Shown: piece after piece, positions 9,492 to 54,761 of the stretch
How positions within the stretch are numbered: position 1 is the first letter of the stretch
Layout of the letters: each line of letters starts with the position of its first letter
Assembly: GCF_000723405.1 (NCBI RefSeq)
Contig: NZ_CCAE010000009.1
Span: forward strand, 1-64,000
Direction of reading: 5' to 3'
Length of the DNA: 64,000 nt
DNA from: Hydrogenophaga intermedia
GTDB taxonomy: Bacteria > Pseudomonadota > Gammaproteobacteria > Burkholderiales > Burkholderiaceae_C
The notes under the pieces: generated by a model
The model's input: the letters and a program-made list of their open reading frames with translations, nothing else
Database searches by the model: none
What the model was told of the DNA's origin: nothing
Made by a program: the position numbers and the translations under genes

Positions 9492-10476
9492 ACCCATCGC
9501 CGCCGCGCCACCGTCCGCGTCGCCGCGCTGGCGCCTGCCGTCCTTCGGTCCGCTGTTGGGCCTGGTGTTGCTGTGTGTCGTGGGCACCTGGCTCAACAGC
9601 GAATTCGCCACCCTGCCCAACGCACTGAACGTGCTCACGCGCACGGCCTTCATTGGCATCATCGCCGTGGGCATGTGCTTCGTCATCATCTCCGGCGGCA
9701 TCGACCTGTCGGTGGGCTCCATGGCCGCGCTCATCGCGGGCGTCACCATCCTGTTGATGAACAAGCTGGTGCCGCTGGGCTGGCCGCCGGTGGCACTGGT
9801 GGTGGTGGGCATGGCCACTGCGGTGCTGCTGGGCGCGCTGTTTGGCCTGGCGCACGGCCTGCTCATCACGCGCGGGCGCATCGAGCCCTTCATCGTCACG
9901 CTGGGCACGCTCGGCATTTTTCGCGCCTACCTCACCTACTTCGCCGACGGCGGCGCGCTCGCGCTCGACAACGATCTGGCCGACGCCTACGGCCCGGTCT
10001 ACTACGGCAGCCTGCTGGGTGTTCCCATCCCCGTGTGGGTCTTCGCGCTCGTGGCCATCGGCGGCGCGCTGCTGCTCAACCGCACCGCCTATGGCCGCTA
10101 CGTGCAGGCCATCGGCTCCAACGAGCAGGTGGCGCGCTACGCGGCGGTGGACGTGGACCGCACCAAGGTGCTCACCTACACCCTGCTCGGCGTGTGCGTG
10201 GGCATCGCCACGCTGCTCTATGTGCCGCGCCTGGGCTCGGCCTCGCCCACCACCGGCCTGCTGTGGGAGCTGGAGGCCATCGCCGCCGTCATCGTGGGTG
10301 GCACGGCCTTGCGCGGCGGCGCCGGCAGCATCGGCGGCACCGTCATCGGCGCCATCCTGCTCTCGGTCATCAGCAACATCCTCAACCTCACCAGCATCAT
10401 CAGCGTGTACCTCAACGCGGCGGTGCAGGGCTTCGTGATCATCGCCGTCGCATTCATGCAGCGGCGGCGTCCCTAG
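9472..10476 (+). CDS. Sugar ABC transporter permease (RbsC type)
   Basis: A 334-residue integral membrane protein with about eight to ten hydrophobic segments; the segments [20 protein letters not shown] and [19 protein letters not shown] are diagnostic of the RbsC/BPD_transp_2 permease family. It forms the channel for the sugar transporter whose ATPase precedes it and whose binding protein follows. The start overlaps the ATPase gene, consistent with translational coupling. The substrate is unknown; the isomerase and dehydrogenase downstream point to a sugar or inositol-type polyol. Confidence 0.92.
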
Positions 10477-10499
10477 GGCTAGCAACAAGGCCCTGCTTT
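10475..10499 (+). terminator. Stem-loop with T-rich tail between permease and binding-protein genes
   Basis: AGGGC (10475-10479) pairs with GCCCT (10490-10494) and is followed by GCTTTTTCT. The stem is short, so this is at best a partial terminator or an mRNA-stabilising or processing hairpin. It separates the membrane components from the periplasmic binding protein gene, which is normally needed in larger amounts. Confidence 0.35.
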
Positions 10500-10533
10500 T
10501 TCTGTCACCACCACCACCCTCAAGGAGACAAGC

Positions 10534-11496
10534 ATGAAGAACCGCATCCGTCTGCACGCGCTGGCCGCCGTGGCCGCCATCGGCCTGGCCAGCCCGCTGC
10601 TGGCGCAGGCCCAGAACAAGGTGAACCTGGGCGTGGCCATCCCGGCCGCCACCCACAGCTTTGCCGCCGGCCTGGTGTACTGGGCCAACGAGGCCAAGAA
10701 GGAGCTCGAAAAAGACCCGGCCATCAAGGTCACCATCAAGACCGCCAGCGGCGCGCCCGAACAGGCCAACCAGTTGCAAGACCTGGTCACAGCCACCAAG
10801 ATCGATTCGCTCGTCATCCTGCCCTTCGAATCCGCCGCGCTCACGCGCCCGGTGCAACAGGTGAAGGCCAAAGGCGTGTACGTCACGGTGGTCGACCGCG
10901 GCCTCACCGACACCAGTGCGCAAGACGCCTACGTCTCCGGCGACAACACCGCCTTCGGCAAGGTGCCGGCCGAGTACCTGGCCAAGTTCCTCAATGGCAA
11001 GGGCAACATCGTCGCGCTGCGCGGCATCCCCACCACCATCGACAACGAGCGCATGGACGCCTTCACCGCGGTGATGAAGAACCACCCGGGCATCAAGATC
11101 CTCGACGCCAAGCACGGCAACTGGAACCGCGACGACGCCTTCAAGGTGATGCAGGACTTCCTCACGCGCTTCAAGGAGATCGACGCCGTGTGGGCCGCCG
11201 ACGACGACATGGCCTTCGGCGTGTTGCGCGCCATCGAGCAGGCCAAGCGCAAGGACATCAAGATCGTTTTCGGCGGCGCCGGCGCCAAGTCGATGGTGAA
11301 GACCCTCATGGACGGCAGCAACCCGCTGATCCAGGCCAACGTGTCCTACTCGCCCAAGTTCCTCTACGAGGCCATCAAGATGACCGCGCTGGCGCGCAAG
11401 AAGGGCGAGAAGCTGCCGGCCTCGACCATCGTGCCCTCGGTGCTCATCACCAAGCAGAACGCCAAGGACTTCTACTTCCCCGACTCGCCGTTCTGA
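10534..11496 (+). CDS. Periplasmic sugar-binding protein of the ABC transporter
   Basis: A 320-residue protein with a signal peptide (HALAAVAAIGLASPLLAQA, cleavage after about residue 26) and the Peripla_BP_4 fold of ribose/galactose-type binding proteins: an opening strand VNLGVAIPAATHSF, the hinge region and a C-terminal segment AVWAADDDMAFGVLRAIEQA typical of the family. It delivers the sugar to the permease/ATPase pair encoded upstream. AAGGAGAC lies just before ATG 10534. It is followed after 21 bases by the epimerase/isomerase gene. The ligand cannot be told from sequence alone. Confidence 0.9.
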   Translation: MKNRIRLHALAAVAAIGLASPLLAQAQNKVNLGVAIPAATHSFAAGLVYWANEAKKELEKDPAIKVTIKTASGAPEQANQLQDLVTATKIDSLVILPFESAALTRPVQQVKAKGVYVTVVDRGLTDTSAQDAYVSGDNTAFGKVPAEYLAKFLNGKGNIVALRGIPTTIDNERMDAFTAVMKNHPGIKILDAKHGNWNRDDAFKVMQDFLTRFKEIDAVWAADDDMAFGVLRAIEQAKRKDIKIVFGGAGAKSMVKTLMDGSNPLIQANVSYSPKFLYEAIKMTALARKKGEKLPASTIVPSVLITKQNAKDFYFPDSPF

Positions 11497-11517
11497 ACGC
11501 GCGCCAGGAGGACCCGC

Positions 11518-12576
11518 ATGAAAACGATTCAAGGCCCCGGGATCTTCCTGGCCCAGTTCATCGGCGCGGCCGCGCCCTTCAACACGCTGGAGGGCCTGGC
11601 CGGCTGGGCCGCTTCGCTGGGCTACCAGGGGGTGCAGATGCCCACCAGCGACGCGGCCATCTTCGACCTCAAGCGCGCCGCCGAGAGCGACGCGTACTGC
11701 GACGAATTGAAGGGCCAGCTCGCCGCGCACGGCCTGCAGGTCACCGAACTCTCCACCCACCTGCAGGGCCAGTTGCTCTGCGTGCACCCCGCCTACGACC
11801 TGCAGTTCGACGCCTTCGCGGCGCCCGAGGTGCGCGGCAACCCCGCCGCGCGCACGCAGTGGGCGCACGACCAACTGCTGCTCGCGGCCAAGGCCTCGAA
11901 GCGGCTCGGCCTCAAGGCCCACGTGTCCTTCTCGGGCGCGCTGGCCTGGCCCTATCTCTACCCATGGCCGCAGCGCCCGCCCGGTCTGGTGGATGCGGCT
12001 TTCGAAGAACTCGCCAAGCGCTGGCGCCCCGTGCTCGACGCCTTCGACGACGCGGGCGTGGACGTCTGCTACGAGCTGCACCCCGGCGAGGACCTGCACG
12101 ACGGCGTCACCTTCGAGCGCTTCCTCGACGCCGTGGGCCAGCACCCGCGCGCCAACATCCTGTACGACCCGAGCCACTTCGTGCTGCAGCAACTCGACTA
12201 CCTGGCCTTCATCGACCACTACCACGAGCGCATCCGCGCCTTCCATGTGAAGGACGCCGAGTTCCGGCCCAACGGCAAACAGGGCGTGTACGGCAGCTTC
12301 TCGAACTGGATCGACCGCGCGGGCCGCTTCCGTTCGCTGGGCGATGGGCAGGTGGACTTCAAGGCCATCTTCTCGAAGATGGCCCAGTACGACTACCCGG
12401 GCTGGGCCGTGCTCGAGTGGGAGTGCTGCCTCAAGCACCCCGAGGACGGTGCGCGCGAAGGCGCCACCTTCATTCGCGAGCACATCATCCGCGTGGCCGA
12501 CCGCGCTTTCGACGACTTCGCCGCGAGCGCGGGCGACCAGAAGACCCTGTCCACCTTGCTGGGCCTGAACCGATGA
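11518..12576 (+). CDS. Sugar phosphate isomerase/epimerase (xylose isomerase-like TIM barrel)
   Basis: A 352-residue AP-endonuclease-family-2 TIM barrel. Metal-site segments are visible: CYELHPGEDLHDG, NILYDPSHFVLQQLDYLAF, AFHVKDAEFRP and AVLEWECCLKHPEDG, which supply the Glu, Asp and His ligands of the family. Such enzymes isomerise or epimerise sugars or inositol derivatives. The start ATG 11518 has AGGAGG upstream. The stop overlaps the ATG of the following dehydrogenase (ATGA). Together with the ABC transporter and the Gfo/Idh/MocA dehydrogenase, it argues for one catabolic operon for a rare sugar or polyol. Confidence 0.88.
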   Translation: MKTIQGPGIFLAQFIGAAAPFNTLEGLAGWAASLGYQGVQMPTSDAAIFDLKRAAESDAYCDELKGQLAAHGLQVTELSTHLQGQLLCVHPAYDLQFDAFAAPEVRGNPAARTQWAHDQLLLAAKASKRLGLKAHVSFSGALAWPYLYPWPQRPPGLVDAAFEELAKRWRPVLDAFDDAGVDVCYELHPGEDLHDGVTFERFLDAVGQHPRANILYDPSHFVLQQLDYLAFIDHYHERIRAFHVKDAEFRPNGKQGVYGSFSNWIDRAGRFRSLGDGQVDFKAIFSKMAQYDYPGWAVLEWECCLKHPEDGAREGATFIREHIIRVADRAFDDFAASAGDQKTLSTLLGLNR

Positions 12577-13709
12577 GCGACGAGCGCAGCACACGGCGCA
12601 TCCGCCTGGGCATGGTCGGCGGTGGCGAGGGCAGCTTCATCGGCGCCGCGCACCGCATCGCGGCGCGCCTCGACGACCAGTTCGAACTCGTGGCCGGCGC
12701 GCTCTCGTCCACGCCCGAGCGCGCGCACGCCAGTGCCGCCGCGCTGCACATCGCGCCCGATCGCAGTTACACCGACTACGCCGAGATGGCGCGCACCGAA
12801 GCGCAGCGCGCCGACGGCATCGACGTGGTCGCCATCGTCACGCCCAACCACCTGCACGTGCCGGTGGCGCGCGCCTTCGTGGAGCAGGGCATTCATGTCA
12901 TCTGCGACAAGCCGCTCGCCACCTCGCTCGCCGAGGCCGAGGCCCTGGCCCAGCGCGTGCGCGAGCGCGGTGTGCTGTTCCTGCTGACGCACACCTACAG
13001 CGGCTACCCCATGGTGCGCCAGGCGCGAGAACTCGTGGCCGACGGCGCCATCGGCGACATCCGCATCGTGCAGGTGGAGTACGTGCAGGACTGGCTGGGC
13101 GAGCCCATCGAACAGCAGGGCAACAAACAGGCCGCGTGGCGCAACGACCCGGCGCAGGCCGGCCCGGCCGGCGCGCTGGGCGACATCGGCACCCACGCCT
13201 ACCACCTGGCCGGCTACGTGAGCGGCCTGCGCCTGCAGGAACTCGCGGCGGAACTCAGCACCTTCATCCCCGGCCGCGCGCTGGATGACCACGTGCAGGT
13301 GATGCTGCGCTACGAAGGCGGCGCGCGCGGCATGCTGTGGGCCAGCCAGGTGGCCAGCGGCAGCCGCAACGGCCTGCGGCTGCGCGTGTACGGCAGCACC
13401 GGTTCGCTGCAGTTCGACCAGGAGAAGCCGGAGGAGCTGTGGCTCACGCGGCCGGGGCAGCCCTCGCAGTGCCTGTACCGTGGCGTGCCCGCGCAAGCGG
13501 GCTCAACCGCCACACCGCACCGCATTCCCTCGGGCCACCCCGAGGGCTATCTCGAGGCCTTTGCCCAGCTCTACCGTGATTTCGCGCGCGCCTGGCGTGG
13601 TGAGCCGGGCGTGGCGCTGCCGGGGCTGGACGATGGCCTGCAAGGCATGGCCTTCATCGAGGCCGTGCTGCGCAGCCACCGCGAGGGCATGCGCTGGGTG
13701 CGGCTGTAG
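12573..13709 (+). CDS. Gfo/Idh/MocA-family NAD(P)-dependent oxidoreductase
   Basis: A 378-residue protein with the N-terminal Rossmann motif GMVGGGEGSFIGAAHR, then VVAIVTPNHLHVPVARA and the conserved EKP-type motif present here as CDKPLATSLAEAEAL, in which the lysine acts in catalysis. The C-terminal domain contains GDIGTHAYHLAGYVSG, supplying the usual His. These enzymes oxidise or reduce sugars, inositols or their keto forms. It is the last gene of the sugar operon and is coupled to the epimerase/isomerase gene. A stem-loop follows 28 bases downstream. Confidence 0.9.
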   Translation: MSDERSTRRIRLGMVGGGEGSFIGAAHRIAARLDDQFELVAGALSSTPERAHASAAALHIAPDRSYTDYAEMARTEAQRADGIDVVAIVTPNHLHVPVARAFVEQGIHVICDKPLATSLAEAEALAQRVRERGVLFLLTHTYSGYPMVRQARELVADGAIGDIRIVQVEYVQDWLGEPIEQQGNKQAAWRNDPAQAGPAGALGDIGTHAYHLAGYVSGLRLQELAAELSTFIPGRALDDHVQVMLRYEGGARGMLWASQVASGSRNGLRLRVYGSTGSLQFDQEKPEELWLTRPGQPSQCLYRGVPAQAGSTATPHRIPSGHPEGYLEAFAQLYRDFARAWRGEPGVALPGLDDGLQGMAFIEAVLRSHREGMRWVRL

Positions 13710-13736
13710 GGGTGGGGCGGCCCTGCGGAACGGGGA

Positions 13737-13775
13737 TTTCCGCACATGTTCCGATTTTTGCGGTTTGTGCGGAAA
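13737..13775. terminator. Dyad between convergent operons
   Basis: TTTCCGCAC (13737-13745) pairs with GTGCGGAAA (13767-13775) around a 21-base loop. It lies between two convergent operons and is AT-richer than its surroundings. A U-tract is present only on the minus-strand reading, so its use as a terminator is uncertain; it could also be a factor binding site. Confidence 0.35.
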
Positions 13776-13820
13776 CCGTAGCAATATCAATGGTCTGTGG
13801 CGCCTTCAAGCCGAAGATGT

Positions 13821-14489
13821 TCAAGCCTTGAACCCGATGCGCGCCAGCGTCTGATCGATCCAGGCCGTGTCGAGCCGGCCCTCGGCGATCTGCCGCAGCG
13901 TCACCTGCTCGGCCTGTGACTTCTTCTGCGCGGCCTCCAGCACGCCCGCCGCCTCGTCCCGCGGCACGCACAGCACGCCATCGGCGTCGCCGATGACCAG
14001 GTCGCCCGGGTGGATCACCATGCCATCGATGGCGATGGGCACGTTGATCTCGCCCGGACCGTCCTTGTAGGGGCCGCGGTGCGTCACGCCCGCCGCGAAC
14101 ACGGGCAGGGCGCCCGCGCCGATCACGTCGAGGTCGCGGATCGCGCCGTTGATGACGAAGCCGGCGATGCCGCGCTGGATGGCGTAGGTCGTCATCAGCT
14201 CACCGATCAGTGCGTTGCTGAGGTCGCCCCCGCCGTCCACCACGATCACGTCGCCCGGCCGCGCGATCTCCAGCGCCTTGTGGATCATGAGGTTGTCGCC
14301 CGGCCGTGTCTTCACGGTGATGGCGGGCGCGGACAGGCGCGTCTCGCGGCTCAGCGGGCGCAGGCGCGCGCCGGCCGCGGTCATGCGGGTCATGCAGTCG
14401 CTCACGTTGGCGACGGGCACGCCGCGAAAGGCCTCGACGAGGTCGGGCGCGACGCGGTGGGTGAGGGGGAGGATGCGCAGTCCGAGCAT
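13821..14489 (-). CDS. RraA-like / 4-hydroxy-4-methyl-2-oxoglutarate aldolase family protein
   Basis: A 222-residue protein of the RraA-like (demethylmenaquinone methyltransferase-like) family. It shows DVIVVDGGGDLSNALIGEL and the loop GFVINGAIRDLDVI, which contain the Gly-rich turn and the Arg-Asp pair that bind metal and the pyruvate moiety in HMG/CHA aldolases. This version has the aldolase features, so a role in cleaving a 2-oxo-4-hydroxy acid is more likely than inhibition of RNase E. It is the last gene of the left-reading hydroxy-acid operon, three bases after the FMN dehydrogenase gene. Confidence 0.85.
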   Translation of the reverse strand: MLGLRILPLTHRVAPDLVEAFRGVPVANVSDCMTRMTAAGARLRPLSRETRLSAPAITVKTRPGDNLMIHKALEIARPGDVIVVDGGGDLSNALIGELMTTYAIQRGIAGFVINGAIRDLDVIGAGALPVFAAGVTHRGPYKDGPGEINVPIAIDGMVIHPGDLVIGDADGVLCVPRDEAAGVLEAAQKKSQAEQVTLRQIAEGRLDTAWIDQTLARIGFKA

Positions 14490-14492
14490 GGT

Positions 14493-15683
14493 TCAGTGTC
14501 CTTGGGCGGGAATCAGGTGGCTGGGGTCCAGCTCGTCGGGCCGCAGCACGCCCATCAGGGCCATGTTGCGGGACACCTCCGAGCGCAGCAGGTCGATGGC
14601 GCGCAGCGCGCCGGCCTCACCGGCCACGGCGGCCGCGAAAGCGAAGGGGCGGCCGACGAAGACGAAGCGCGCGCCCAGGGCCAGGGCCTTGAGCACGTCG
14701 CTGCCGCGGCGCACGCCGCTGTCCAGCATCACGGGAATGTCGGGGCAGGCCTCGACGATGCGCGGCAGCACCGCCAGCGGCGCGGCGGCACCGTCGAGCT
14801 GGCGCCCGCCGTGGTTGCTCACGATGACGCCGTTGATGCCCTCGTCGGCCGCGCGCCGCGCATCGCGCGGATCGAGCACGCCCTTCACCACGATCTCGCC
14901 ACCCCACACGCGGCGGATCATCTGCAGGTGCCGCCAGTTGAGGTGGCCGCGGTCGGACAGGTTGCGTTCGACGTTGGGTGAGAGGATGGGCGCGCCGCGC
15001 GTGGCGTAGCTGTTCTCGAAGTGCGGCATGCCGTGTTGCACCAGCGTGCGCAGGAAGGTGCCGAACAGCCAGCGCGGGTGCGTGATGCCCTGCCAGGCCA
15101 GGCGCGGGCCGGGCCGCACGGGAATGGTGAAGCCCGCGCGCAGGTTGCTTTCGCGGTTGGCGGCGGCGGGCGTGTCCAGCGTGATCACGAGCGTGCGAAA
15201 GCCCGCCGCCTTCACGCGGTCCAGCAGCGCGAGGATGCCGTCGTCATCGCCCGGCAGGTAGGCCTGGAACCAGGCGTCGGGGTTCACCGCGATCACCTCT
15301 TCCAGCCGGATCAGCGAGGAGCCGCTGAGCACGAAGGGAATGTTCTCGCGCCGCGCGGCCTGGGCGATGACGAGGTCGCCACGGTAGGCCGAGAGCGCGG
15401 CCAGGCCCATGGGCGCGACGCCGAAGGGCGTGGCCCAGCGGCGGCCGAACAGATCCACGCCCAGGTCGCGCGGCGTGATGTCCACCAGCACGCGCGGCAC
15501 CATCTCCCAGGCCTGGAAGGACGCGCGGTTGGCGCGGAAGGACTGGTTGGTCTCGGCAGCGCCGGCCACGTAGCCGAACACGGGGCGCGGCAGGTGGCGG
15601 CGCGCTTCGGTTTCGAAATCGTCGAGGCATAGCACGCGCTGCAGCCACCGGGGGGGGGCTGGCGCGTCGTCGATCGGGTTCAT
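14493..15683 (-). CDS. FMN-dependent alpha-hydroxy-acid dehydrogenase (lactate dehydrogenase/glycolate oxidase family)
   Basis: A 396-residue TIM-barrel flavoprotein. Family signatures are VSNHGGRQLDGA, with the catalytic histidine and substrate-binding arginine, and LDSGVRRGSDVLKALALGA, the FMN phosphate site. It oxidises an L-2-hydroxy acid to the 2-oxo acid, passing electrons to oxygen or the quinone pool. ATG 15683 overlaps the stop of the upstream reductase gene. A run of nine G (15650-15658, template of PAPPR near the N-terminus) sits just inside the gene. The exact substrate (lactate, glycolate, mandelate) cannot be assigned. Confidence 0.88.
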   Translation of the reverse strand: MNPIDDAPAPPRWLQRVLCLDDFETEARRHLPRPVFGYVAGAAETNQSFRANRASFQAWEMVPRVLVDITPRDLGVDLFGRRWATPFGVAPMGLAALSAYRGDLVIAQAARRENIPFVLSGSSLIRLEEVIAVNPDAWFQAYLPGDDDGILALLDRVKAAGFRTLVITLDTPAAANRESNLRAGFTIPVRPGPRLAWQGITHPRWLFGTFLRTLVQHGMPHFENSYATRGAPILSPNVERNLSDRGHLNWRHLQMIRRVWGGEIVVKGVLDPRDARRAADEGINGVIVSNHGGRQLDGAAAPLAVLPRIVEACPDIPVMLDSGVRRGSDVLKALALGARFVFVGRPFAFAAAVAGEAGALRAIDLLRSEVSRNMALMGVLRPDELDPSHLIPAQGH

Positions 15684-20398: not shown

Positions 20399-22195
20399 TC
20401 AGAACGACTCCCACTCGCCGATGGCGTCGTCGGCGCTGGCCTTGGCGCTCGGCACCGGCGTGGCGGCCTTGGCGGGTGCGGCGGCCTTGGCGGGCATGGC
20501 CACGGGCCTGGCGGTCGGTGCGGCTGGCTTCGCCGCCGCGACGGGCTTCGCCACCGGCGCGGGCTTGGGCGCCACCTCCAGCTTCGGCTCGCGCCGCTGC
20601 TGAAGTTCACCCGCCGTCAGCGCGGCGATGCTGGCCGAGGCCGCGCCACCGTCCAGGCGGAAGATGCGCACCACCTCCGCCAGCCGCGCGGCCTGGTCGT
20701 TCATGCTCGACGCGGCGGCGGCGCTTTCTTCCACCAGCGCAGCGTTTTGCTGCGTCATCTGGTCCAGGTTGGAGACAGCGGCGTTGATCTGGTTGACGCC
20801 CTCGGCCTGCTCGCCCGAGGCGCTGGCGATTTCGCCGATGATGTCGCGCACGCGCACCACGTTCTCGACGATCTCGCTCATGGTCTGGCCGGCCTGGTTC
20901 ACCAGCTCGGTGCCCACGGTCACCTTGTCCACGCTGGCGCCGATGAGGCCCTTGATCTCTTTCGCGGCCTGCGCGCTGCGCTGTGCGAGGTTGCGCACCT
21001 CGCCGGCCACCACCGCGAAGCCGCGGCCCTGTTCACCCGCGCGCGCCGCTTCCACAGCCGCGTTGAGCGCCAGGATGTTGGTCTGAAAGGCGATGCCGTC
21101 GATGACGCCGATGATGTCGTTGATCTTGCGCGAGGCCTGGTTGATCTCTTCCATGGTCGAGACGACCTGGTTCACCACCGAGCCGCCCTTTTGCGCGCTC
21201 TGGCCCGCCACGTCGGCGAGCTGGTTGGCCACGCGGGCCGAGTCGGCCGACTGCTTGATCGCCCCCGACATCTGCTCCATCGAGGCTGCGGTCTGCTGCA
21301 GGTTGCTGGCGGTCTGTTCGGTGCGCGACGACAGGTCGTTGTTGCCGGTGGAAATTTCCTTGGCCGCCACCGTGATGTTCTCGGTGCCGCGCTTGACGTC
21401 GGCCACCACGCTGACCAGGCGGTCGCGCATGGTGCCCAGGGCGCGGGTCATGGCGCCGAATTCGTCGCCGCGGTCGTTGTTCAGGGTGGCCGTCAGGTCG
21501 CCCGCAGCCATGCGCTCGGCGAAGGCCATGGTCTCGTTCAGGGGCTGGCGGATGTTGCGGATCAGGAAGAAGGCGCCCACGGCAATGGCCACGATCAGCA
21601 GGCCCAGTTGCGCGGCGGCGACCGTGATGTTGGCCGCGCGCTCCTTGGCCTGTTCCGCCTGCGCGTCCATCAGGACCTTCTTCTGCATGCGGCCGAAGTC
21701 CTGCACGGCATTGAGGTACGGCGTGACGGCGCCGTTGAAGTTGGTGCTGATCTCTTGCGCGGCGCCGGCGTAGTCCTCGGCGGCCTTGAGCTTGGTGGCC
21801 TTGCCCAGCGAGGCAAGCACGGTGGTGCGCAATTCGGCGATGCGCGCCAGGGCGGCGATTTCGGCCTCGGTCTTGGGCATGGCGTCCAGCGCCTTCTGCA
21901 GTTCCGAGATGCGGGCCGAGCCGGCGGGTATCAGGTCCTTGTACAGCGCGCTGATGTTGGGGTCGCTGGACAACGTGGACGCCTGAACCCGCGTGGTCGT
22001 GGTTTCGGTGACACCGGCCCACTCGACGGCCAGGGCCGTCTTCTCCGACAGCAGGGTGAGGGTGCGCTCGGAGGCTTCACCCATGCGGGCAGAGCGCAAG
22101 CCGGCGCTGGCGATGGTGCCCAGCAGGGCCAGGATGATGAGGGCGACGCCGGTCCAGAGCTTGGTGCCGACGGACATGTTGCGAAGGAAATTCAT
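20399..22195 (-). CDS. Methyl-accepting chemotaxis protein with C-terminal pentapeptide
   Basis: A 598-residue chemoreceptor. TM1 spans about 12-34 and TM2 about 188-212; between them lies a periplasmic helical (4HB-type) sensor. A HAMP domain and a signalling domain follow, with the invariant hairpin tip [21 protein letters not shown] long alanine/proline-rich linker leads to the terminal EWESF, which matches the xWxxF pentapeptide that tethers CheR/CheB in enterobacterial receptors. A sigma28-like promoter lies at 22278-22305. The ligand is unknown. It has no adjacent che genes. Confidence 0.92.
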
Positions 22196-22277: not shown

Positions 22278-22305
22278 CTATCGGCCGTGTGCCGGGAAAA
22301 CTTGA
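22278..22305 (-). promoter_or_regulatory. Sigma28 (FliA)-type promoter before the chemoreceptor gene
   Basis: Reading leftwards, TCAAGTTT (22305-22298), a 12-base spacer and GCCGATAG (22285-22278) match the sigma28 consensus TAAAGTTT-N11-GCCGATAA at 14 of 16 positions. It lies about 83 bases before the start codon of the 20399-22195 receptor gene, as expected for a late, FliA-dependent chemotaxis gene. Confidence 0.75.
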
Positions 22306-22372: not shown

Positions 22373-23665
22373 TCAATCGCCGCGCGCAGCGCCGTCCAGC
22401 GGCAGCGAGAGTGCGAAAGTGGTACCCGAGTCGCTGGAGTCCAGCGTCAGGCGGCCCTTGTGCACGCGCACCGTGTTCTTGCAGAAGGCCAGGCCCAGGC
22501 CGTTGCTGTGCGTGTCCGCGGTGCTGACAAAGGGCCGGAACACGCTGCGCCGCAGTTGGCGCGGAATGCCCGGGCCGCGGTCGCGGATCTCCACCACGCC
22601 CCGCCCGCCTTGCACGGCCGTGACGAGCGAGATGTCGCCCGGCGCTGGCGCGCCCTTCTGTTGGCGCAGCGCCACCAGCGCGTTGCGCAGCAGGTTGTGC
22701 ACCACCTGCGTGAACAGGCGCCGCGTGCCGCGGAAGTGGAACTCGGGGCCGGGCTCCAAGACCACCGCGCGCCGCTCGCTGTCGGTGCGGAAAGGAAAGC
22801 TGTCGATCGCCTCCTGGATCATCTCGCGCGCCGCGATGCGCTCCTCGCCCCGGCGCAGCACCAGCAACTGCGCGTTCACGATCTGCGAATCGATCTGCTG
22901 GTGCAGGTTGCGCACCAGCTGCTCCAGCCGCTGGCCCGAGCGGCGCGCCGTGGCCGACTCTTCGTTGGCGCGCAAGGTTTCCACCAGCAGGCCGACGCTC
23001 GCCAGCGGCGTGCGCAGTTCGTGCGCCATCACGCCCAGGGCATTCATGGTGGCCTGCAGGCGCTGGCGGTCCTGCTGCGCCGAGGACACGCCCAGCAGCA
23101 AGCCGCACAACCAGGACAGGCCGATCATGAAGCCGTGTTCACCCGCGAGGGCGGGTGGCAGCAGGCCCGTGGCGGCGCCGAGCAGTCCGGCACCGCCGAA
23201 GGCCAGGAGCAGCATGGCGGTGGCGTAGCGCCAGTCGGTGATCACGTACATCAGCAGCGCCACCAGGCACAGGGCCAGCACGCGCGGGTCGGTACCGCCG
23301 TTGAGCAGGTACAGGCCGGCCTGCACCACCGGCCCGGCCAGGGCCAGGTACAGCAGCACGTAGGCGCGGGCCGTGGGTCGCTCGGCCACGTCATCGGGGT
23401 CGAGCAGGAACAGGGGCACGGCGCCCAGCGCGGCGACAAGGCGCAGCGCGAAGCTGTCGAAAGGCTGCGGCGCGACGAAGGTGTACACAGCCCAGGCCGA
23501 GAGGTGCACGATGAAGTAGATCAGGCCAAGGGCGACCAACCGTGCGCGCGACAGGTGCAGCACGGGTTCGCGCGGAAGCTGTAGGAGGGTCTGAAGCGGC
23601 GTGGGCAGCGAAGAAGGCGAGGAGAGGGGGGGCATGGCGAGCCGCGTGAACAGATGTGGCCGCAT
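22373..23665 (-). CDS. Membrane sensor histidine kinase, six-helix CqsS/LqsS-like type (second of tandem pair)
   Basis: A 430-residue kinase. About six transmembrane segments occupy residues ~40-215; no periplasmic sensor domain is visible, so sensing is likely within the membrane. The DHp phospho-acceptor is MAHELRTPLAS (His near residue 241) and the ATPase has the N box QVVHNLLRNAL, G1 RDRGPGIPR and G2 GLGLAFCKNT. It is a paralogue of the kinase upstream (72 of the core motifs identical or similar by eye), with which it is probably co-transcribed. Start ATG 23665; ATG 23635 is an alternative. It could also be annotated as a generic ATPase-type sensor kinase. Confidence 0.82.
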   Translation of the reverse strand: MRPHLFTRLAMPPLSSPSSLPTPLQTLLQLPREPVLHLSRARLVALGLIYFIVHLSAWAVYTFVAPQPFDSFALRLVAALGAVPLFLLDPDDVAERPTARAYVLLYLALAGPVVQAGLYLLNGGTDPRVLALCLVALLMYVITDWRYATAMLLLAFGGAGLLGAATGLLPPALAGEHGFMIGLSWLCGLLLGVSSAQQDRQRLQATMNALGVMAHELRTPLASVGLLVETLRANEESATARRSGQRLEQLVRNLHQQIDSQIVNAQLLVLRRGEERIAAREMIQEAIDSFPFRTDSERRAVVLEPGPEFHFRGTRRLFTQVVHNLLRNALVALRQQKGAPAPGDISLVTAVQGGRGVVEIRDRGPGIPRQLRRSVFRPFVSTADTHSNGLGLAFCKNTVRVHKGRLTLDSSDSGTTFALSLPLDGAARGD

Positions 23666-23683
23666 GCTAAGGCTCCCCCGTGT

Positions 23684-23697
23684 CCCCGCCAGCGGGG
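23684..23697 (-). other. Short GC hairpin between the tandem kinase genes
   Basis: CCCCGC (23684-23689) pairs with GCGGGG (23692-23697) over a two-base loop in the 80-base gap between the two kinase genes. It lacks a T-run and could modulate message processing or be part of a REP-like remnant. Functional meaning is not established. Confidence 0.3.
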
Positions 23698-23745
23698 AAG
23701 CCCTCAGGCCGGCTGTGGGGAAACCCGGATGGATGCGCCGCCCGT

Positions 23746-25044
23746 TCAGCGCATCGCCACGGGCAGGTCGATCACGAAGGACGAGCCGCTGGCCACGCGC
23801 TCGAAGCGCAGTTGCCCGCGGTTGGCCTCCACGGTCTCGCGGCAGAAGGCCAGGCCCAGGCCGCTGCTGTGCGTGGTCTGCGTGCTGAAGAAGGGCTCGA
23901 AGATGAAGCGGCGCACGTGATCGGGCACGCCCGGGCCTTTGTCGCGCACGCGGATGGTGCCGCGCGCCGCGCCGGTGTCCACCTCGATCTCGATGTCCCC
24001 GCGCTCGAACGCGGCCTGGGTGCGGCGCAGCGCGTACACCGAGTTCTTCACCATGTTGTGGATCACCTGGATGAACAGGCGCTCGTTGCCCATGAAGTGG
24101 AAGTCGCCGCGCGTGTACACGCTCACGGCCTGGCGCTCGCGCTCGCTCAGGAAGGGGTAGGACTCGATCGCGTTGTGCACGAGCCGGGCGGCGTCGAGCG
24201 TCTCGTGGCCGGGCAGGATGTCGAGCAGCTGCGCGTTGACGATCTGCGAATCGATCTGGTGGTTGATGGCGCGCAGCAGCCCCTCCAGGCGATCGGCCAG
24301 GCGTGGCACGTCGGCGGGTTCGGCGTCGCGCAGGTGGTCGTTGATCAGCGCGGCGCTGGCCAGTGGCGTGCGCAGTTCGTGCGCCATCACGCCCATGGGC
24401 AGCAGGGTGGCATTGAGGCGCTGCAGCCGGTGGCTGGCCGATGACAGCGCCAGCGTGAGCGCCGAGAGCCAGGCGAAGTAGAAGGTGAGGTTGCCCTCGG
24501 TCGCGCGCCACGGGGGCAAGGCCAGTTGCGGCTCGGTCATCGAGACGAAGGCGCGCGCGGCGATGGTGCCCACCAGCAAGGTGGCGGTGGCCACGCGCCA
24601 GTCGAGCACCTGGTAGACGAGGAAGCACATCAGCGCGGTGCTGGTCATCCACACCGCGTTGCCGTGGTTCATCAGATAGAACCACTGGAAGAAGAAGGGG
24701 CCGGTGTAGGTCAGGTAGACCAGCAGGTAGATCCGGATGGCGCGGTGGCGGGTCACTTGCGCGGGCGTCCACCACAGCAGCGGCAGCGCGCCGATCGCGG
24801 CCAGCGCGCGCGCCAGCGGGCTCTCGAAGGGCTGTGGTGCGAGCTGGCTCCAGAAGCCATGGAAGGCCAGGTGGCCGACGAACAGGACGAGGCTCAGCGC
24901 CACCAGCCGCGCACGCGAGAGGTGCCGCAGCGGTTCGATGGGTTGACGAAGGAGGGCGAGCGCCCGTACGAGGAATCGGTGTCGCACAACGGGGCGCATT
25001 CTAGGGAGCGCAGCGGGGTTCGAAGCGTGAAATAAATCGGTCAT
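23746..25044 (-). CDS. Membrane sensor histidine kinase, six-helix CqsS/LqsS-like type (first of tandem pair)
   Basis: A 432-residue kinase with about six hydrophobic segments in residues ~45-210. The DHp motif MAHELRTPLASAALINDHLR, the N box QVIHNMVKNSVYALRR, G1 RVRDKGPGVPDH and GLGLAFCRET define a full HisKA/HATPase core. The stretch HQIDSQIVNAQLL is shared with its paralogue 80 bases downstream. No cytoplasmic REC or HPt domain is fused. It is divergent from a response regulator with unusual length, so the two kinases and the regulator probably form one two-component set. Seven-to-six-helix membrane kinases of this shape are known from the CAI-1/LAI-1 quorum-sensing receptors; ligand here unknown. 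Confidence 0.82.
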   Translation of the reverse strand: MTDLFHASNPAALPRMRPVVRHRFLVRALALLRQPIEPLRHLSRARLVALSLVLFVGHLAFHGFWSQLAPQPFESPLARALAAIGALPLLWWTPAQVTRHRAIRIYLLVYLTYTGPFFFQWFYLMNHGNAVWMTSTALMCFLVYQVLDWRVATATLLVGTIAARAFVSMTEPQLALPPWRATEGNLTFYFAWLSALTLALSSASHRLQRLNATLLPMGVMAHELRTPLASAALINDHLRDAEPADVPRLADRLEGLLRAINHQIDSQIVNAQLLDILPGHETLDAARLVHNAIESYPFLSERERQAVSVYTRGDFHFMGNERLFIQVIHNMVKNSVYALRRTQAAFERGDIEIEVDTGAARGTIRVRDKGPGVPDHVRRFIFEPFFSTQTTHSSGLGLAFCRETVEANRGQLRFERVASGSSFVIDLPVAMR

Positions 25045-25093
25045 GCGCGGGTCTCAAGTTCGTGCGCCAAGTGCCGATATGCTCCGATGGTCC

Positions 25094-25114
25094 GGACCGC
25101 GCGCGCCGCGGTCC
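25094..25114. promoter_or_regulatory. Hairpin/dyad in kinase/response-regulator divergent region
   Basis: GGACCGCG (25094-25101) pairs perfectly with CGCGGTCC (25107-25114) around a five-base loop, overlapping a smaller palindrome GGTCCGGACC (25089-25098). The dyad lies 24 bases before the response regulator start and within the 94-base gap separating it from the kinase genes. It could be a regulator binding site or a leader hairpin in the response-regulator mRNA. Confidence 0.4.
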
Positions 25115-25138
25115 TCCACTTCCTGAAGTAGGCCCGGC

Positions 25139-26074
25139 ATGTTGTTTCCCTGCATGAGAGCGTCCTCGCGCATCTCCTTCATCGACGACGACCCGTCGTT
25201 CCTGGACGCCATGGTCGACGCCGTCGCCTCGGTGCGGCGCTGCGAGTTTCTGCACCACCCGGGTGATCTGGACCGCCTCTACGCCGAGCAGGAGGATCTG
25301 TTGCGGCGCGAGCAGCAGATGCTCGCGCGCATCGTGGGCGCCGAATCGCCGCTGCCCGCGGCGCTCGACTACTTCGCCTGGCCCGGGCGGCACGCCATCT
25401 TCTCGGTGCTGGTCACCGACCAGGTGATGCCGGCCGAAGACGGCGTGTCCCTCTGCGAACGCCACGGCCATTTCGGCCTGCGCCGCATCCTGCTCACCGG
25501 CGCGGCCGACGCCGACCTGGCGGTCAAGGCCTTCAACCAGGGCGCCATCGAGTCCTTCCTGCCCAAGCAGACGCGCAACCTGGGCTTCAATCTGCGCCGC
25601 GCGCTGCAAGACCAGTTTCTGCACAACTCGGCGGAGCGCGGCCGTCAACTGGCCATGCAGATGCGGCGCGAGCGCTTCGCGGCGCTCGAATCGGCCGATG
25701 TGTCCAACGCACTGATGGTGATCCTCGGCCGTGGCCGCGTGGACGAGTACCTCGTGCTCGGCGAACCCTTCGGTGTGCTGGGCCTGCGCAGCGACGGCCG
25801 GCTGAGCTGGATCCAGATCGAGACGCGCGAGGGCCTTCGCGAACTGGGCGAGTCGCTGGCCGAGTTCGGCTGGGACGCGCCGGGCATGGCCAGCGTGCGC
25901 GCGGGCGAGGCCCTGCCCAACGTGGAGCTCGTGTCTCAACTCGATGGCATTGCGCCCGCCGTCGCGCCGGTCGAGACGCTGAGCGAGGCCGAGGGCGTGC
26001 TGGCCGCCGAGTTCGTGTTCGACTGGCCCGGCACGGTGTCGTGGCGCACGCTGCCCGGGGGGGCGGCTGCGTGA
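25139..26074 (+). CDS. Response regulator with extended receiver domain, partner of the tandem kinases
   Basis: A 311-residue protein whose N-terminus forms a receiver domain: ISFIDDDPSFLDA supplies the acidic pocket, VTDQVMPAEDG carries the likely phospho-acceptor Asp near residue 99, ILLTGAADADLA has the Thr and SFLPKQ the conserved Lys. Between the acidic pocket and the phospho-Asp there are about 60 extra residues, which is unusual for CheY-type receivers. The C-terminal ~150 residues have no recognised DNA-binding motif. It is divergent from the two kinases and followed 37-61 bases later by a LuxR-type gene. Start ATG 25139; ATG 25154 is possible. Confidence 0.78.
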   Translation: MLFPCMRASSRISFIDDDPSFLDAMVDAVASVRRCEFLHHPGDLDRLYAEQEDLLRREQQMLARIVGAESPLPAALDYFAWPGRHAIFSVLVTDQVMPAEDGVSLCERHGHFGLRRILLTGAADADLAVKAFNQGAIESFLPKQTRNLGFNLRRALQDQFLHNSAERGRQLAMQMRRERFAALESADVSNALMVILGRGRVDEYLVLGEPFGVLGLRSDGRLSWIQIETREGLRELGESLAEFGWDAPGMASVRAGEALPNVELVSQLDGIAPAVAPVETLSEAEGVLAAEFVFDWPGTVSWRTLPGGAAA

Positions 26075-26135
26075 GCGGCGCCGGGCTGTTCCCAAGCCGC
26101 TCGTCCCCGCAGTGCGCAGCATGAAGGGCTGTCCA

Positions 26136-26801
26136 ATGAGCGCAAGCGCCCCCTCGGGCTTCGCCGGCCTGGACGACCTGGGTGGGCCGCTCGATGCCTT
26201 AGAGCCCCTGATGGACGCGCTCGTCGCGCGCGTGCGCGAGCGCGGGTTCTCGGGCGTGGCCTTCGTGCGGCCCGACCCGTTCGGCGCGGCCGGCGCGCGC
26301 CTGGTGCAGGCGCTGAGCAGCCCGCCGCTGCAGGCGCACGCCGACTGGATCGAGCGCGCCACGCCGCCGCGCGATCAGGCCGTGGCCCTGCTGCCGATCG
26401 AGGCCCTGGGCGAGGAGGGTGCGCGCCGCCTCGGCGGCCTGGGCTACCAGCAGGTGCTGGTGGTGCGTGTCCCCGTGCTGGGCGAGGCCTGCTGCGAGTT
26501 CTGGCTGTTCTCCACCAGCACCCACGTGCGCGAAGAACACCTGGGCGCGGCCACGCTGGATCTGCTGCGCGACTGGCCCGCCTGGCGCGAAGCGCTGCGC
26601 GCGGCGGTTTGCCCGCTCACCCCGCGCGAGCGCGAGGTGCTGCAGGCCGTGGCCGAAGGCCTCAAGGGCGCGGAGGCGCAGGAGCGCTTCGGCTACACCG
26701 AGCGCACCTTCCGCCTGCACGTGGAGAACGCCAAACGAAAAATGCGCGCGGCCAACGGCTCGCAGGCCGTGTACCGCGCACACCTCATGTGCGGGCTGTG
26801 A
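26136..26801 (+). CDS. LuxR-type transcriptional regulator
   Basis: A 221-residue protein with a C-terminal LuxR/FixJ helix-turn-helix: LTPREREVLQAVAEGLKGAE followed by ERTFRLHVENAKRKMRA (residues ~159-205). The N-terminal ~150 residues loosely resemble autoinducer-binding folds but the invariant Trp/Tyr/Asp triad of acyl-homoserine-lactone receptors is not evident, so a ligand cannot be named. It is the second gene after the response regulator, probably in the same transcript. Start ATG 26136; ATGs at 26112 and 26121 are in frame but less convincing. Confidence 0.78.
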   Translation: MSASAPSGFAGLDDLGGPLDALEPLMDALVARVRERGFSGVAFVRPDPFGAAGARLVQALSSPPLQAHADWIERATPPRDQAVALLPIEALGEEGARRLGGLGYQQVLVVRVPVLGEACCEFWLFSTSTHVREEHLGAATLDLLRDWPAWREALRAAVCPLTPREREVLQAVAEGLKGAEAQERFGYTERTFRLHVENAKRKMRAANGSQAVYRAHLMCGL

Positions 26802-26854: not shown

Positions 26855-26883
26855 CACTTTATGACTCGCACGGAGGTGATGCC

Positions 26884-27288
26884 ATGGCCAGAATGGGTTC
26901 ACGAACGGCCAAGCCGCAGGCGGCCAGCGAACGGGTGGTGACCACGGTCCGGCTGGAGCCCGCGCTGCACGCCGAACTCGCCGCGCTGGGCGAACTGGAA
27001 CACGCCAGCTTCAACCAGGTGGTGGAGGCGGGCATGCGCCATTACGTGCAGCACCGGCGCGACGTGTTGGAGCAGCGGCTGGAACGTGCCTTGAAGGCCC
27101 TGCGGGCACGGCCCAAGGGTGGCGATTTCGACGCAGCTATCGCCCGCCTGGTGGAGGCGGAAGCCACACTGGGCGACGCCGATCCCGCGCAGGGGCGTCT
27201 GGGTCAACGGTCGACCGATGCGCGGGCCAAGTCCATGAGCGACAAGGGGCTGGCCGCGCGCGTGCGTTCCCTCATGGCCGCTGGCTGA
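26884..27288 (+). CDS. Ribbon-helix-helix protein, probable antitoxin partner of Fic
   Basis: A 134-residue protein whose segment RVVTTVRLEPALHAELAALG followed by EHASFNQVVEAGMRHYVQ fits a ribbon-helix-helix DNA-binding fold (beta strand, two helices). A basic, coiled tail (VLEQRLERALKALRA) follows. It sits three bases before a Fic-domain gene, the standard gene order in toxin-antitoxin pairs, and has an inverted repeat in its promoter. The S/T-x-x-x-E-G/N inhibitory motif of VbhA-type Fic antitoxins is not seen, so inhibition would be by another mechanism or this is only a transcriptional repressor. Confidence 0.65.
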   Translation: MARMGSRTAKPQAASERVVTTVRLEPALHAELAALGELEHASFNQVVEAGMRHYVQHRRDVLEQRLERALKALRARPKGGDFDAAIARLVEAEATLGDADPAQGRLGQRSTDARAKSMSDKGLAARVRSLMAAG

Positions 27289-27291
27289 GGC

Positions 27292-27936
27292 ATGGCTGCC
27301 GGCCCCCATTGGGACGCGGACAGCCCTGAACTGCGTGCCAATCTCAAGCGGATCTTCAAAGCCATGCGCCGGCACGCTGAGGCGCGCCATGCACTGAACG
27401 CGGCCGACATCAAGGGCTGGCATGCGGACATGATGAAGGGCCTGTCGGTGCCCGAGGCGGCCGATGTGGGTGTGAGCGAGAGCGATCTCAAGGGGGCCTT
27501 TCGAGGGCCACCGCGGTTGGCGCACGTCACCGTCACCATCGGCATCCACGAGGGCGTGGCACCAGACCGGGTGCTCGGCGAGGTCGGTGCCCTGCTGGAA
27601 AGGGTGGCCATCACGGTGGCGGTGCTGGACGAGGCGATCGGTTCGAAGGCACCCGCGCGCTTCACGCGGGACGAACTGCGCGCTGTGTGCGAACTGGCGG
27701 GGACGCTGCACGGCGAATGGGTGCGCATCCACCCCTTCGGCAATGGCAACGGACGCATGGCGAGGTTGCTCGCCAACTGGGTGTTGATGCGTTATGGCAT
27801 CGAGCCGGTGCTCAGTCCCCGGCCGCGGCCCGAGGGCTTGTATGAACTGGCCGCTCGCGCGTCCATGCACGGTCGACACGACGTGATGGTGCTGTGCATC
27901 CTGTCGGAGATCGAAGCGGCGGCTGGCCGCTCCTGA
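27292..27936 (+). CDS. Fic-domain protein (probable AMPylating toxin or related transferase)
   Basis: A 214-residue protein with the Fic core motif HPFGNGNGRMAR near residues 146-157. The family consensus is HxFx(D/E)GNGRxxR; here the acidic residue that coordinates Mg2+ is Asn, a variation also found in other Fic proteins. Fic enzymes transfer AMP or another nucleotide moiety to target proteins. No N-terminal S/T-x-x-x-E-G/N inhibitory helix is visible. It is preceded by the ribbon-helix-helix gene and followed by a small convergent gene. Toxin activity is likely but not shown by the sequence. Confidence 0.8.
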   Translation: MAAGPHWDADSPELRANLKRIFKAMRRHAEARHALNAADIKGWHADMMKGLSVPEAADVGVSESDLKGAFRGPPRLAHVTVTIGIHEGVAPDRVLGEVGALLERVAITVAVLDEAIGSKAPARFTRDELRAVCELAGTLHGEWVRIHPFGNGNGRMARLLANWVLMRYGIEPVLSPRPRPEGLYELAARASMHGRHDVMVLCILSEIEAAAGRS

Positions 27937-53428: not shown

Positions 53429-54430
53429 ATGCAACTCGAGCGCGTCCCCGCCGCCTCCGCCCTCAGCGCCCTCGGTGCCCGCATGCCGGATGCGCCCGTG
53501 CGCCCCGCGCAGCCCGAGGTGGGCCAGCGCCTGCGCATGCGCTTCGACGGCCACGACGGCGACGGCGTGCTGCTCAGCGAAGAGCAGGGCCGCCGCTGGC
53601 GCCTGGCCGATGGTGCCGGCTGGTCGCGCAACCTGCGCGTGGGCGACATGCTGTGGATGCAGGTGCGCGCCACCGAACCCGCGCTCGAACTGGAATGGGT
53701 GCTGCGCCCGCCCACGCCCGCACGCGCGGACACCGCCGCGCAACCCGAGGACGTGGCCGCCATGCGCCCCGACCAGGCCGCGCAGCGCCTGCACCAGTGG
53801 CGCCTGCCCCCGGCGGCCGAACTCGCGGCCGCGTGGCGCGCCATCCTCTCGTCGCGGCACATGGAGCTGGGCCTGCGCAGCCTGGCCCTGATGGAAGGCC
53901 CGGCGCGTTTGCCCCTGGCGCCATCGGGCGGCGAGGCCGCCACCGTGCGCGCCGCGCCCGAGGCGCTACCGCACTGGGTGTTTCACCTCTATTCACTGGG
54001 CAGCCTGGCCGTGGCCCTGCGTGTGGCCGCGCGCCGCCAGTGGGCGCGCGAACAACCCGCCAGCCCCGCGCCGCCGCAGACCGAGGCCGGCCTGGAGCTG
54101 GAACTGAGCCTGCCCGGCGGCGGGCAGGTGCTCCTGCAACTGTGCTGGCGCCCATCGCGCTTGGCCATGGCCGTGCTGCCGCGCCAGCGCGAGCACCTGG
54201 AGTTGCTGCGCGTGGTGCTGCCCGACATCGTGGCCGCCATGGCCCGCGCGGGCGCGGTGCCGGCGGTGGTGCAACTGGGCTCGCCGCTCACCGCCTTGCC
54301 GGCGGGCGGCATGGGCTACCGGCCCGGGCCGGTGTCGTCGGCGCTGCTGCAACTGGGCGCGGAATTCACCACCGCGCTCATGCGCATCTGGCCGGTGGGC
54401 ATGGGGCCGGCGGAGACGGCCGAAGGCTAG
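53429..54430 (+). CDS. Orphan protein downstream of flagellin, FliK C-domain-like
   Basis: A 333-residue protein without signal peptide. Residues ~220-280 (LELELSLPGGGQVLLQLCW, then HLELLRVVLPDIVAAMARAG) resemble the Flg_hook/FliK_C pattern of strand, strand, helix (LxVxLxxxGxVxVxL and LxxxLPxLxxxLxxxG). FliK itself is encoded at 35962, so this would be a second, divergent ruler-like or secretion-related protein. The N-terminal half (AILSSRHMELGLRSLALMEG) is unrecognised. It begins 52 bases after the flagellin terminator; no strong promoter is seen. Confidence in the coding call is high, in the function low. Confidence 0.55.
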   Translation: MQLERVPAASALSALGARMPDAPVRPAQPEVGQRLRMRFDGHDGDGVLLSEEQGRRWRLADGAGWSRNLRVGDMLWMQVRATEPALELEWVLRPPTPARADTAAQPEDVAAMRPDQAAQRLHQWRLPPAAELAAAWRAILSSRHMELGLRSLALMEGPARLPLAPSGGEAATVRAAPEALPHWVFHLYSLGSLAVALRVAARRQWAREQPASPAPPQTEAGLELELSLPGGGQVLLQLCWRPSRLAMAVLPRQREHLELLRVVLPDIVAAMARAGAVPAVVQLGSPLTALPAGGMGYRPGPVSSALLQLGAEFTTALMRIWPVGMGPAETAEG

Positions 54431-54761
54431 GCCAATCGCCGCGTCGACCGGCGTTGAAGCAGCCCGCGAAACGCGGGAGAACATCTTTTTTTTCAATCCC
54501 TGTCAAGGTTGACAGGCGACCGTATTAAACCCCGGTGGGTACCGCCATTTCGCGGGTTTTCACCAGCCCGGTGCATGGCTGGTGAAGGCGTTTGCCGCAC
54601 CGCCCCGGGGGGACCCCCGGGAACGTTCCACTGTGGCCGAGGCGGTCGCTTGCGCGTCCTTGGCGTCCGATGCAGGCAATCACGTCACGCGAAGTTCATC
54701 GAATGGGTGACAAACCGGATAGGGGTATTTTGTGGCTGTGCGGTCACACGAACGCTGAACC
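54431..54761. other. 331-base gene-free region with several inverted repeats
   Basis: The gap between the FliK-like orphan (right-reading) and a chemoreceptor (left-reading) holds CCTGTCAA-GG-TTGACAGG (54499-54516), TTCACCAGCC...GGCTGGTGAA (54559-54586) and CCCGGG-type dyads near 54604-54622. A run of T precedes the first (54486-54493). No open frame there is convincing. It may terminate both convergent transcripts, hold operators or code a structured RNA. Confidence 0.45.

Follow-up and report, generated by a model that had tools for sequence, protein, structure and literature searches.

The first 64,000 nucleotides of contig 9 (NZ_CCAE010000009.1) in the 5.29 Mb draft genome of Hydrogenophaga intermedia, the stretch referred to here as the window, carry a four-gene module at positions 22373–26801 that is probably a receiver of alpha-hydroxyketone (Cqs/Lqs/Jqs) quorum sensing with no synthase of its own; taken as a whole, this is the explanation that best fits the evidence. 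Two histidine kinases with CqsS/JqsS-type membrane domains lie on the minus strand, K2 (23746–25044, 432 amino acids) and, about 80 bp downstream, K1 (22373–23665, 430 amino acids, with the start codon picked by comparison with a K1 orthologue). Divergent from them, on the plus strand, lie an LqsR-family response regulator of 311 amino acids (25139–26074) and a LuxR-type regulator (26112–26801, start codon uncertain), preceded by a sigma-28 (FliA)-like promoter (25054–25079). A sequence-only reading had described two kinases, a divergent and unusual regulator and a LuxR gene following it; gene calls, Pfam and alignments bear this out, with the GerE domain of the LuxR gene product over its Pfam cut-off. 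The same reading had proposed a module of the alpha-hydroxyketone type, a proposal that gains support from descent, in the form of receptor homology, the LqsR fold and a synthase in the same genome. It had seen no synthase in the window, and tblastn with the genome's own synthase likewise found none there at an expectation value (E) of 1e-5; an Rfam scan of the window returned 0 matches.

K1 and K2 are paralogues with 44% identity across 400 residues, the membrane part covered, and the blocks HELRTPLAS and IDSQIVNAQLL are exactly alike in the two, as had been noticed from the sequence. HATPase_c is over its Pfam cut-off in both kinases; HisKA, whose cut-off is 26.9 bits, passes in K1 (34.3 bits) but falls short in K2 (22.3 bits). 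An AlphaFold model of K2 (predicted local distance difference test score, pLDDT, 82; predicted template modelling score, pTM, 0.57) places six helices ahead of the H box, at residues 44–68, 76–90 (broken at 86), 101–125, 130–146, 149–170 and from 178 onward, the sixth continuing into the kinase helix. A plain hydropathy scan of K2 gave fewer clear peaks and not six clean ones, so the count of six transmembrane segments, claimed earlier for both proteins, draws on the K2 model and on homology, which for K1 is the sole basis of the assignment. By the model and Pfam, six transmembrane helices run directly into HisKA and HATPase_c, and an H box is present.

A receptor profile was built from the membrane domains alone of 35 kinases, 33 of which come from genomes with a synthase match. 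It matched K2 at E 4e-39 and K1 at E 3e-29, as well as three Vibrio CqsS sequences (E 2e-18 to 1e-16), against E 0.33 for the best shuffled sequence and 0.05 for the best unrelated frame of the window. These CqsS sequences, unannotated in their records, were named by an adjoining cqsA-like gene on large replicons listed as plasmids. A CqsS profile in turn matched K2 at E 2e-8 and K1 at E 2e-4, and comparison of a K1/K2 profile with the CqsS profile gave E 7e-8 (probability 94.6). The membrane-domain comparison proposed in the sequence-only reading is thus positive against synthase-linked kinases and weaker against Vibrio CqsS. Both membrane domains are homologous to those of CqsS and of the synthase-linked kinases, and the finding that would have spoken against that reading, unrelated membrane domains, therefore did not occur.

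The genome has a fourth membrane domain that is CqsS-like, in a hybrid kinase on contig 11 (locus L016, 1292–3376; CqsS profile E 4.5e-10). This kinase was entered as a control and matched the two profile searches (E 3e-7 and 4.5e-10), and because its membrane domain matches we report it as a relative and not as a neutral control. Its HATPase and receiver domains are over their Pfam cut-offs, HisKA and Hpt below. The adjoining gene (L016, 3456–4160) encodes a FeeM-like N-acyl amino acid synthase (Pfam E 1.2e-8), and from their sequences the two could possibly form a LuxM/LuxN-like pair with a CqsS-like sensor.

According to published work on CqsS, its residues W104, S107 and F162 control how the head group of the signal is recognised, and LqsS is reported to carry S at the place of W104 (PMC3376566), so these residues are not strictly defining for the receptor family. 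We mapped the positions by motif spacing in the Vibrio campbellii sequence and compared 71 aligned receptors, three K1 rows and 68 others. All 68 non-K1 rows have W at the first position, S or T at the second and F or Y at the third. K2 has W, S and F in 3/3 orthologues; K1 has R, A and L in 3/3 and so lacks the usual head-group residues. In the membrane domain, 14 columns reach at least 93% conservation across these 68 rows; W104 and F162 are among them, S107 is not. K2 retains 14/14 in all three orthologues and K1 8/14, with the same six changes, W104 and F162 among them, in all three. Three of the columns (Q, P, and E or D) count for less, because 17 of the 68 rows had been pre-picked by a pattern holding them. 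At the tail-length position C170, K1, K2 and 57/58 other synthase-type kinases (genus and family rows) have L, and the three Vibrio CqsS have F; positions F160 and F166 vary among the aligned receptors. Because K2 keeps all near-invariant columns and K1 only eight, K2 resembles an ordinary receptor of this family, and K1 one whose pocket has been rebuilt. Two signals for the module, as suggested earlier from the presence of two receptors, are plausible but unproven on this alignment: the head-group loss in K1 fits a different ligand, and it fits a silent receptor too.

The regulator had been described as a receiver with a large insert and no DNA-binding domain, and both parts of this description hold. 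Its Pfam receiver match is weak (23.2 bits against a cut-off of 30.2), no DNA-binding domain was found with Pfam, and a model (pLDDT 89) places helices at 41–86 between strands 34–38 and 88–94, the latter holding D94. The acidic pocket (D16–D18), phospho-acceptor Asp (D94), Thr (T120) and Lys (K143) of a receiver are all present and invariant in 30/30 aligned sequences. The closest solved sequence is 6SY9, LqsR of Legionella pneumophila, matched only over residues 84–161 (E 1e-9). In structural comparison the model ranks 6SY9 first (Foldseek E 1.5e-16, template modelling (TM) score 0.70) and aligns with LqsR over 282 residues (Z 25.9, model 1–311), and the next structural matches (Z 18.8) cover the receiver only. 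The model thus points to an LqsR fold over the whole length, output domain included. The published account of this domain in LqsR likens it to a diguanylate cyclase domain whose signature is degenerate and for which no activity was detected, and describes the mode of action of the family as in need of further study (PMC10653808). LqsR-type genes have been generalised as clustered with lqsA- and lqsS-like genes (PMC3376566). The window regulator is clustered with two lqsS-like kinases but no synthase; PhcX of Ralstonia, reported as an LqsR orthologue adjoining phc genes (PMC10653808), already breaks the generalisation, and we did not take lqsA/lqsS clustering as defining.

The genome encodes one synthase of the CqsA/LqsA/JqsA type, on contig 50 (NF005526, 558 bits against a cut-off of 428), with 'CAI-1 autoinducer synthase' as its best PDB match; the genome-wide search for a CqsA-type enzyme that had been suggested earlier is thereby answered. 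Among 14 control genomes, eight gave below-cut-off matches, to related enzymes, and 0 exceeded the cut-off. On contig 50 (locus L002) the synthase (10367–11608) is followed by a convergent regulator (11700–12686) and kinase (12677–14020) and a divergent LuxR gene (14108–14776), an arrangement that most of the genus shares and that we call the core cluster. A kinase query found 48 named core loci (L093–L140), in which the kinase is present by construction; the regulator is present in 48/48, the LuxR gene beside the kinase in 47/48 and the synthase in 46/48, the two loci lacking it (L116 and L135) both lying near contig ends. Across 67 genomes of the genus, 55 have the synthase (53 over the cut-off), 59 the core LuxR or a homologue, and at least 59 a kinase of this kind, scored on the best 25 or fewer candidates per genome at E up to 1e-35. 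Among the matches listed, extra kinases occur in this genome and in G122 and G150 (two each), which we take to be Hydrogenophaga sp. CS4-C022 and H. borbori LA-38, and in G138 (one) only, so that the tandem-kinase module is found in 3/67 genomes. Because a core cluster with synthase exists elsewhere and extra kinases occur in few genomes, we regard the window module as a second, synthase-less set. Synthase and receptor do not stand in one cluster in the window, and since the synthase on contig 50 has its own kinase, regulator and LuxR, we class the module as a receiver and not as a complete system.

In the family at large, 120 sampled genomes yielded an LqsR-like gene in 22 and a synthase in 17, with the regulator present without the synthase in five. 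A second module in G138 (contig 53, L067, 5354–8581) has a single kinase, a regulator and a LuxR gene on one strand, with no synthase match within 13 kb, and its kinase sits on a long branch apart from K1 and K2. Five further LqsR-like loci (L066, L068, L069, L071 and L072) have no synthase or like kinase within 13 kb (E 1e-5); four of them adjoin a LuxR gene, and L069 has none. LqsR-like regulators also occur on plasmids of Polaromonas, Rhodoferax, Massilia and Legionella lytica (L084–L087, L089), and none of these plasmids was among the records matched by the synthase search; a kinase–regulator pair is present in Polaromonas sp. JS666. In two other genera, LqsR-like regulators adjoin a LuxI-type synthase (L070, 6106–9139, and L073, 6673–9690; Autoind_synth E 6e-36 and 5e-37), with a nearby LuxR bearing an autoinducer-binding domain. 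These regulators share 32% and 38% identity with the core regulator of H. intermedia, and the L070 regulator gave no Pfam match at 0.001. From such sequences, LqsR-type regulators may associate also with acyl-homoserine-lactone systems.

The window LuxR is a distant homologue of the core-cluster LuxR (32% identity over 208 residues). In the core LuxR gene, codons 4–9 contain the palindrome CTGTCAA-NN-TTGACAG, exact in 38/46 genes, and this is the most codon-conserved of 217 windows in the 33 of the 46 genes that have one length. The exact palindrome occurs in 56/67 genomes of the genus at 1–2 sites each, compared with 0/67 for the reversed control. The inner pattern TGTCAA-NN-TTGACA, with up to two mismatches, lies upstream of the synthase in 36 of 44 loci (43 of the 48 named ones and our own, five having no usable synthase start), in most cases some 66 bp ahead of the aligned start; in these 44 the reversed pattern never came below four mismatches, and shuffled patterns reached two or fewer in 0.5%. 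Seven loci from other genera have a core-type LuxR, and four of them carry the palindrome at the LuxR gene with at most one mismatch; upstream of the synthase this holds for 2/5 loci, the remaining sites having 2–4 mismatches. The palindrome is a candidate operator that the core LuxR may bind. As an operator of the window module it was rejected: there is no match with three or fewer mismatches in 22–27 kb, and the best match near the window LuxR gene has 5–6 mismatches in the three genomes.

All three carrier genomes have the module flanked by a methyl-accepting chemotaxis gene on one side and the fliF region on the other. The sequence TCAAG-N14-GCCGATA, a sigma-28-type promoter by its consensus, ends 59 bases ahead of the regulator gene and is conserved in this genome and both module-carrying relatives. 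With spacers of 14–15, the pattern has eight sites in the genome and one for the reversed control. One more of the eight precedes the neighbouring chemoreceptor gene, and another (L199) stands at a gene whose product, judged by eye, resembles a flagellar rod protein. The chemoreceptor site, TCAAG-N15-GCCGATA at 22279–22305, lies 83 bases before the gene (20399–22195) and is kept in both relatives. On the far side of the module, positions 26869–27936 hold a short open frame and a gene with a Fic domain ahead of fliF; H. borbori lacks this stretch, which is thus a separate insertion or loss.

The kinase and regulator trees both carry long-branch warnings, and the bootstrap of the regulator tree had not settled. 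One clade (100/99) unites K1 and K2; it falls within a group of 31 rows (99/96), mostly synthase-linked kinases, in which the tree does not fix its place. K1 and K2 each make up a clade of their own, and their split predates the divergence of the three species. The window regulator groups with a second regulator of G170 and with one from another genus, G063 (99/97), whose loci have no kinase or synthase match within their own 13 kb; the synthase-linked regulators form a separate clade (98/94), and the G116 regulator alone branches deeper. A recent duplication of the core cluster was rejected, as the regulator groups apart from the synthase-linked clade and the K1/K2 split precedes the species split. 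All four module frames are open in the three genomes. In comparisons of this genome with the two module-carrying relatives, the ratio of nonsynonymous to synonymous substitution rates (dN/dS) is 0.16–0.41 for the kinases, 0.10–0.27 for the regulator and 0.31–0.51 for the LuxR gene; the core genes, compared in the same way, gave 0.01–0.09. On these ratios the module is kept under purifying selection but evolves faster.

In L. pneumophila the homologous kinases LqsS and LqsT are reported to converge on LqsR, with the signal inhibiting the kinases (PMC5289986). By analogy, K1 and K2 would both act on the divergent regulator, so that K2, and perhaps K1, would set its phosphorylation. K2 would detect the ketone signal of the cell's own synthase or of neighbours; K1 might detect another molecule or be a ligand-independent kinase/phosphatase. 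The regulator may pass its state on through the co-encoded LuxR, which is the likeliest route to DNA because the regulator has no DNA-binding domain, the LuxR gene stands next to it and the core cluster also has a LuxR gene. The sigma-28-like promoter would turn on regulator and LuxR while flagella are being built, and such control would tie density sensing to motility. A fuller scheme, which we offer tentatively and regard as possible at best, is a motility-gated receiver with two channels, in which K2 reads the cell's own ketone and K1 a second cue, both feeding one regulator that acts via LuxR, and in which the core LuxR binds the palindrome. If true, this scheme would answer how LqsR-family regulators reach DNA. 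The presence of a LuxR gene in nearly all core clusters and in the window, together with the palindrome at the LuxR gene and the synthase promoter, makes a testable proposal for LqsR action. K1 and K2 would also amount to a natural experiment in receptor specificity, with the pocket kept in one and rebuilt in the other within one cluster and with one presumed regulator. H. borbori, one of the carriers of the module, is a named strain that is not known to be a pathogen and is thus open to experiment.

Among known systems, Lqs is similar in having two homologous kinases per LqsR-type regulator, the same regulator fold and a second kinase, LqsT, reported to lie outside the synthase cluster (PMC5289986). 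The window differs in that its kinases sit with their own regulator and LuxR, away from a full core cluster, that K1 has lost the head-group residues and that a sigma-28-like promoter is present; LqsS and LqsT were likened by description. The Jqs system of Janthinobacterium sp. HH01 is described as comprising a synthase, a linked kinase and a regulator (jqsA, jqsS and jqsR; PMC3566124). By that published description the core cluster here has the same three gene kinds, whereas the window module has no synthase, two kinases and a LuxR gene. Vibrio CqsS shares a homologous membrane domain and, with K2, the residues W, S and F at W104, S107 and F162, but is reported to be a hybrid kinase that carries a receiver of its own (PMC3376566); K1 and K2 stop at the end of the ATPase domain and have a separate regulator of LqsR type next to them. 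Like the window regulator, PhcX of Ralstonia solanacearum is an LqsR-family protein described away from a cqsA-type synthase (PMC10653808), but lies near phcBSRQ and not near two CqsS/JqsS-type kinases. Among titles and abstract openings of the open-access literature, we found no description of a synthase-less two-kinase receiver module like this one.

Several observations weigh against a synthase-less ketone receiver. Direct similarity between K1 and CqsS is weak (E 2e-4). Regulator–LuxR pairs exist without such kinases, which implies that the kinases are not always needed. Three of the eight sigma-28-like sites (L196, L197 and L199) fall inside open frames, and no such site precedes the related regulators of G170, G063 and G138. 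The window module lacks the palindrome, so no operator common to both sets is visible, and its genes evolve faster than those of the core cluster. The loss of head-group residues in K1 would also suit a module whose receptor-family kinases sense another lipid-like signal, for instance a Phc-type 3-hydroxy fatty acid methyl ester. Such a signal is in keeping with the movement of LqsR-family regulators between quorum-sensing systems, as with PhcX by the phc genes (PMC10653808), with the LqsR-like genes that adjoin a LuxI/LuxR pair in two genomes, and with the contig-11 hybrid kinase, whose CqsS-like domain adjoins an N-acyl amino acid synthase-like gene. We nevertheless consider it rather unlikely, given that K2 retains 14/14 near-invariant receptor columns and that the kinases grouping with the module come mostly from synthase clusters; in addition, no gene for a methyltransferase, PhcB or PhcS was recognised within the module or among its neighbours, although no search was aimed at PhcB or PhcS.

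The same loss in K1 could instead belong to a motility-linked sensor of a membrane or flagellar cue, outside quorum sensing and with no diffusible signal, as the sigma-28-like promoter might suggest, together with the location, which in three genomes has a chemoreceptor gene on one side and fliF on the other. The complete receptor signature in K2 and the candidate signal synthase encoded in the genome make this quite improbable. Slightly less credence still goes to a decaying or weakly constrained extra quorum-sensing copy of little function. The tandem-kinase module is rare (3/67 genomes, among the matches listed), in both comparisons every module gene has a higher dN/dS than the matching core gene, and receptor residues are lost in K1; but the four frames are open in three genomes with dN/dS at 0.10–0.51, receiver residues, kinase motifs and promoter are retained, and the same six K1 changes recur in all three orthologues. 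A synthase-less receiver of alpha-hydroxyketone signalling remains the reading we prefer.

Elsewhere in the window, an exact copy of the core-cluster palindrome, CTGTCAAGGTTGACAG, occurs at 54500–54515, between a 333-residue frame (end at 54430) and a chemoreceptor gene (end at 54762), a place for which Rfam returned nothing. The same 16 bases recur at the corresponding position of G122 and G150, and a conserved ACCGTATTAAACCCC comes after them amid otherwise drifting sequence; the site is possibly a regulon site or a small-RNA promoter.

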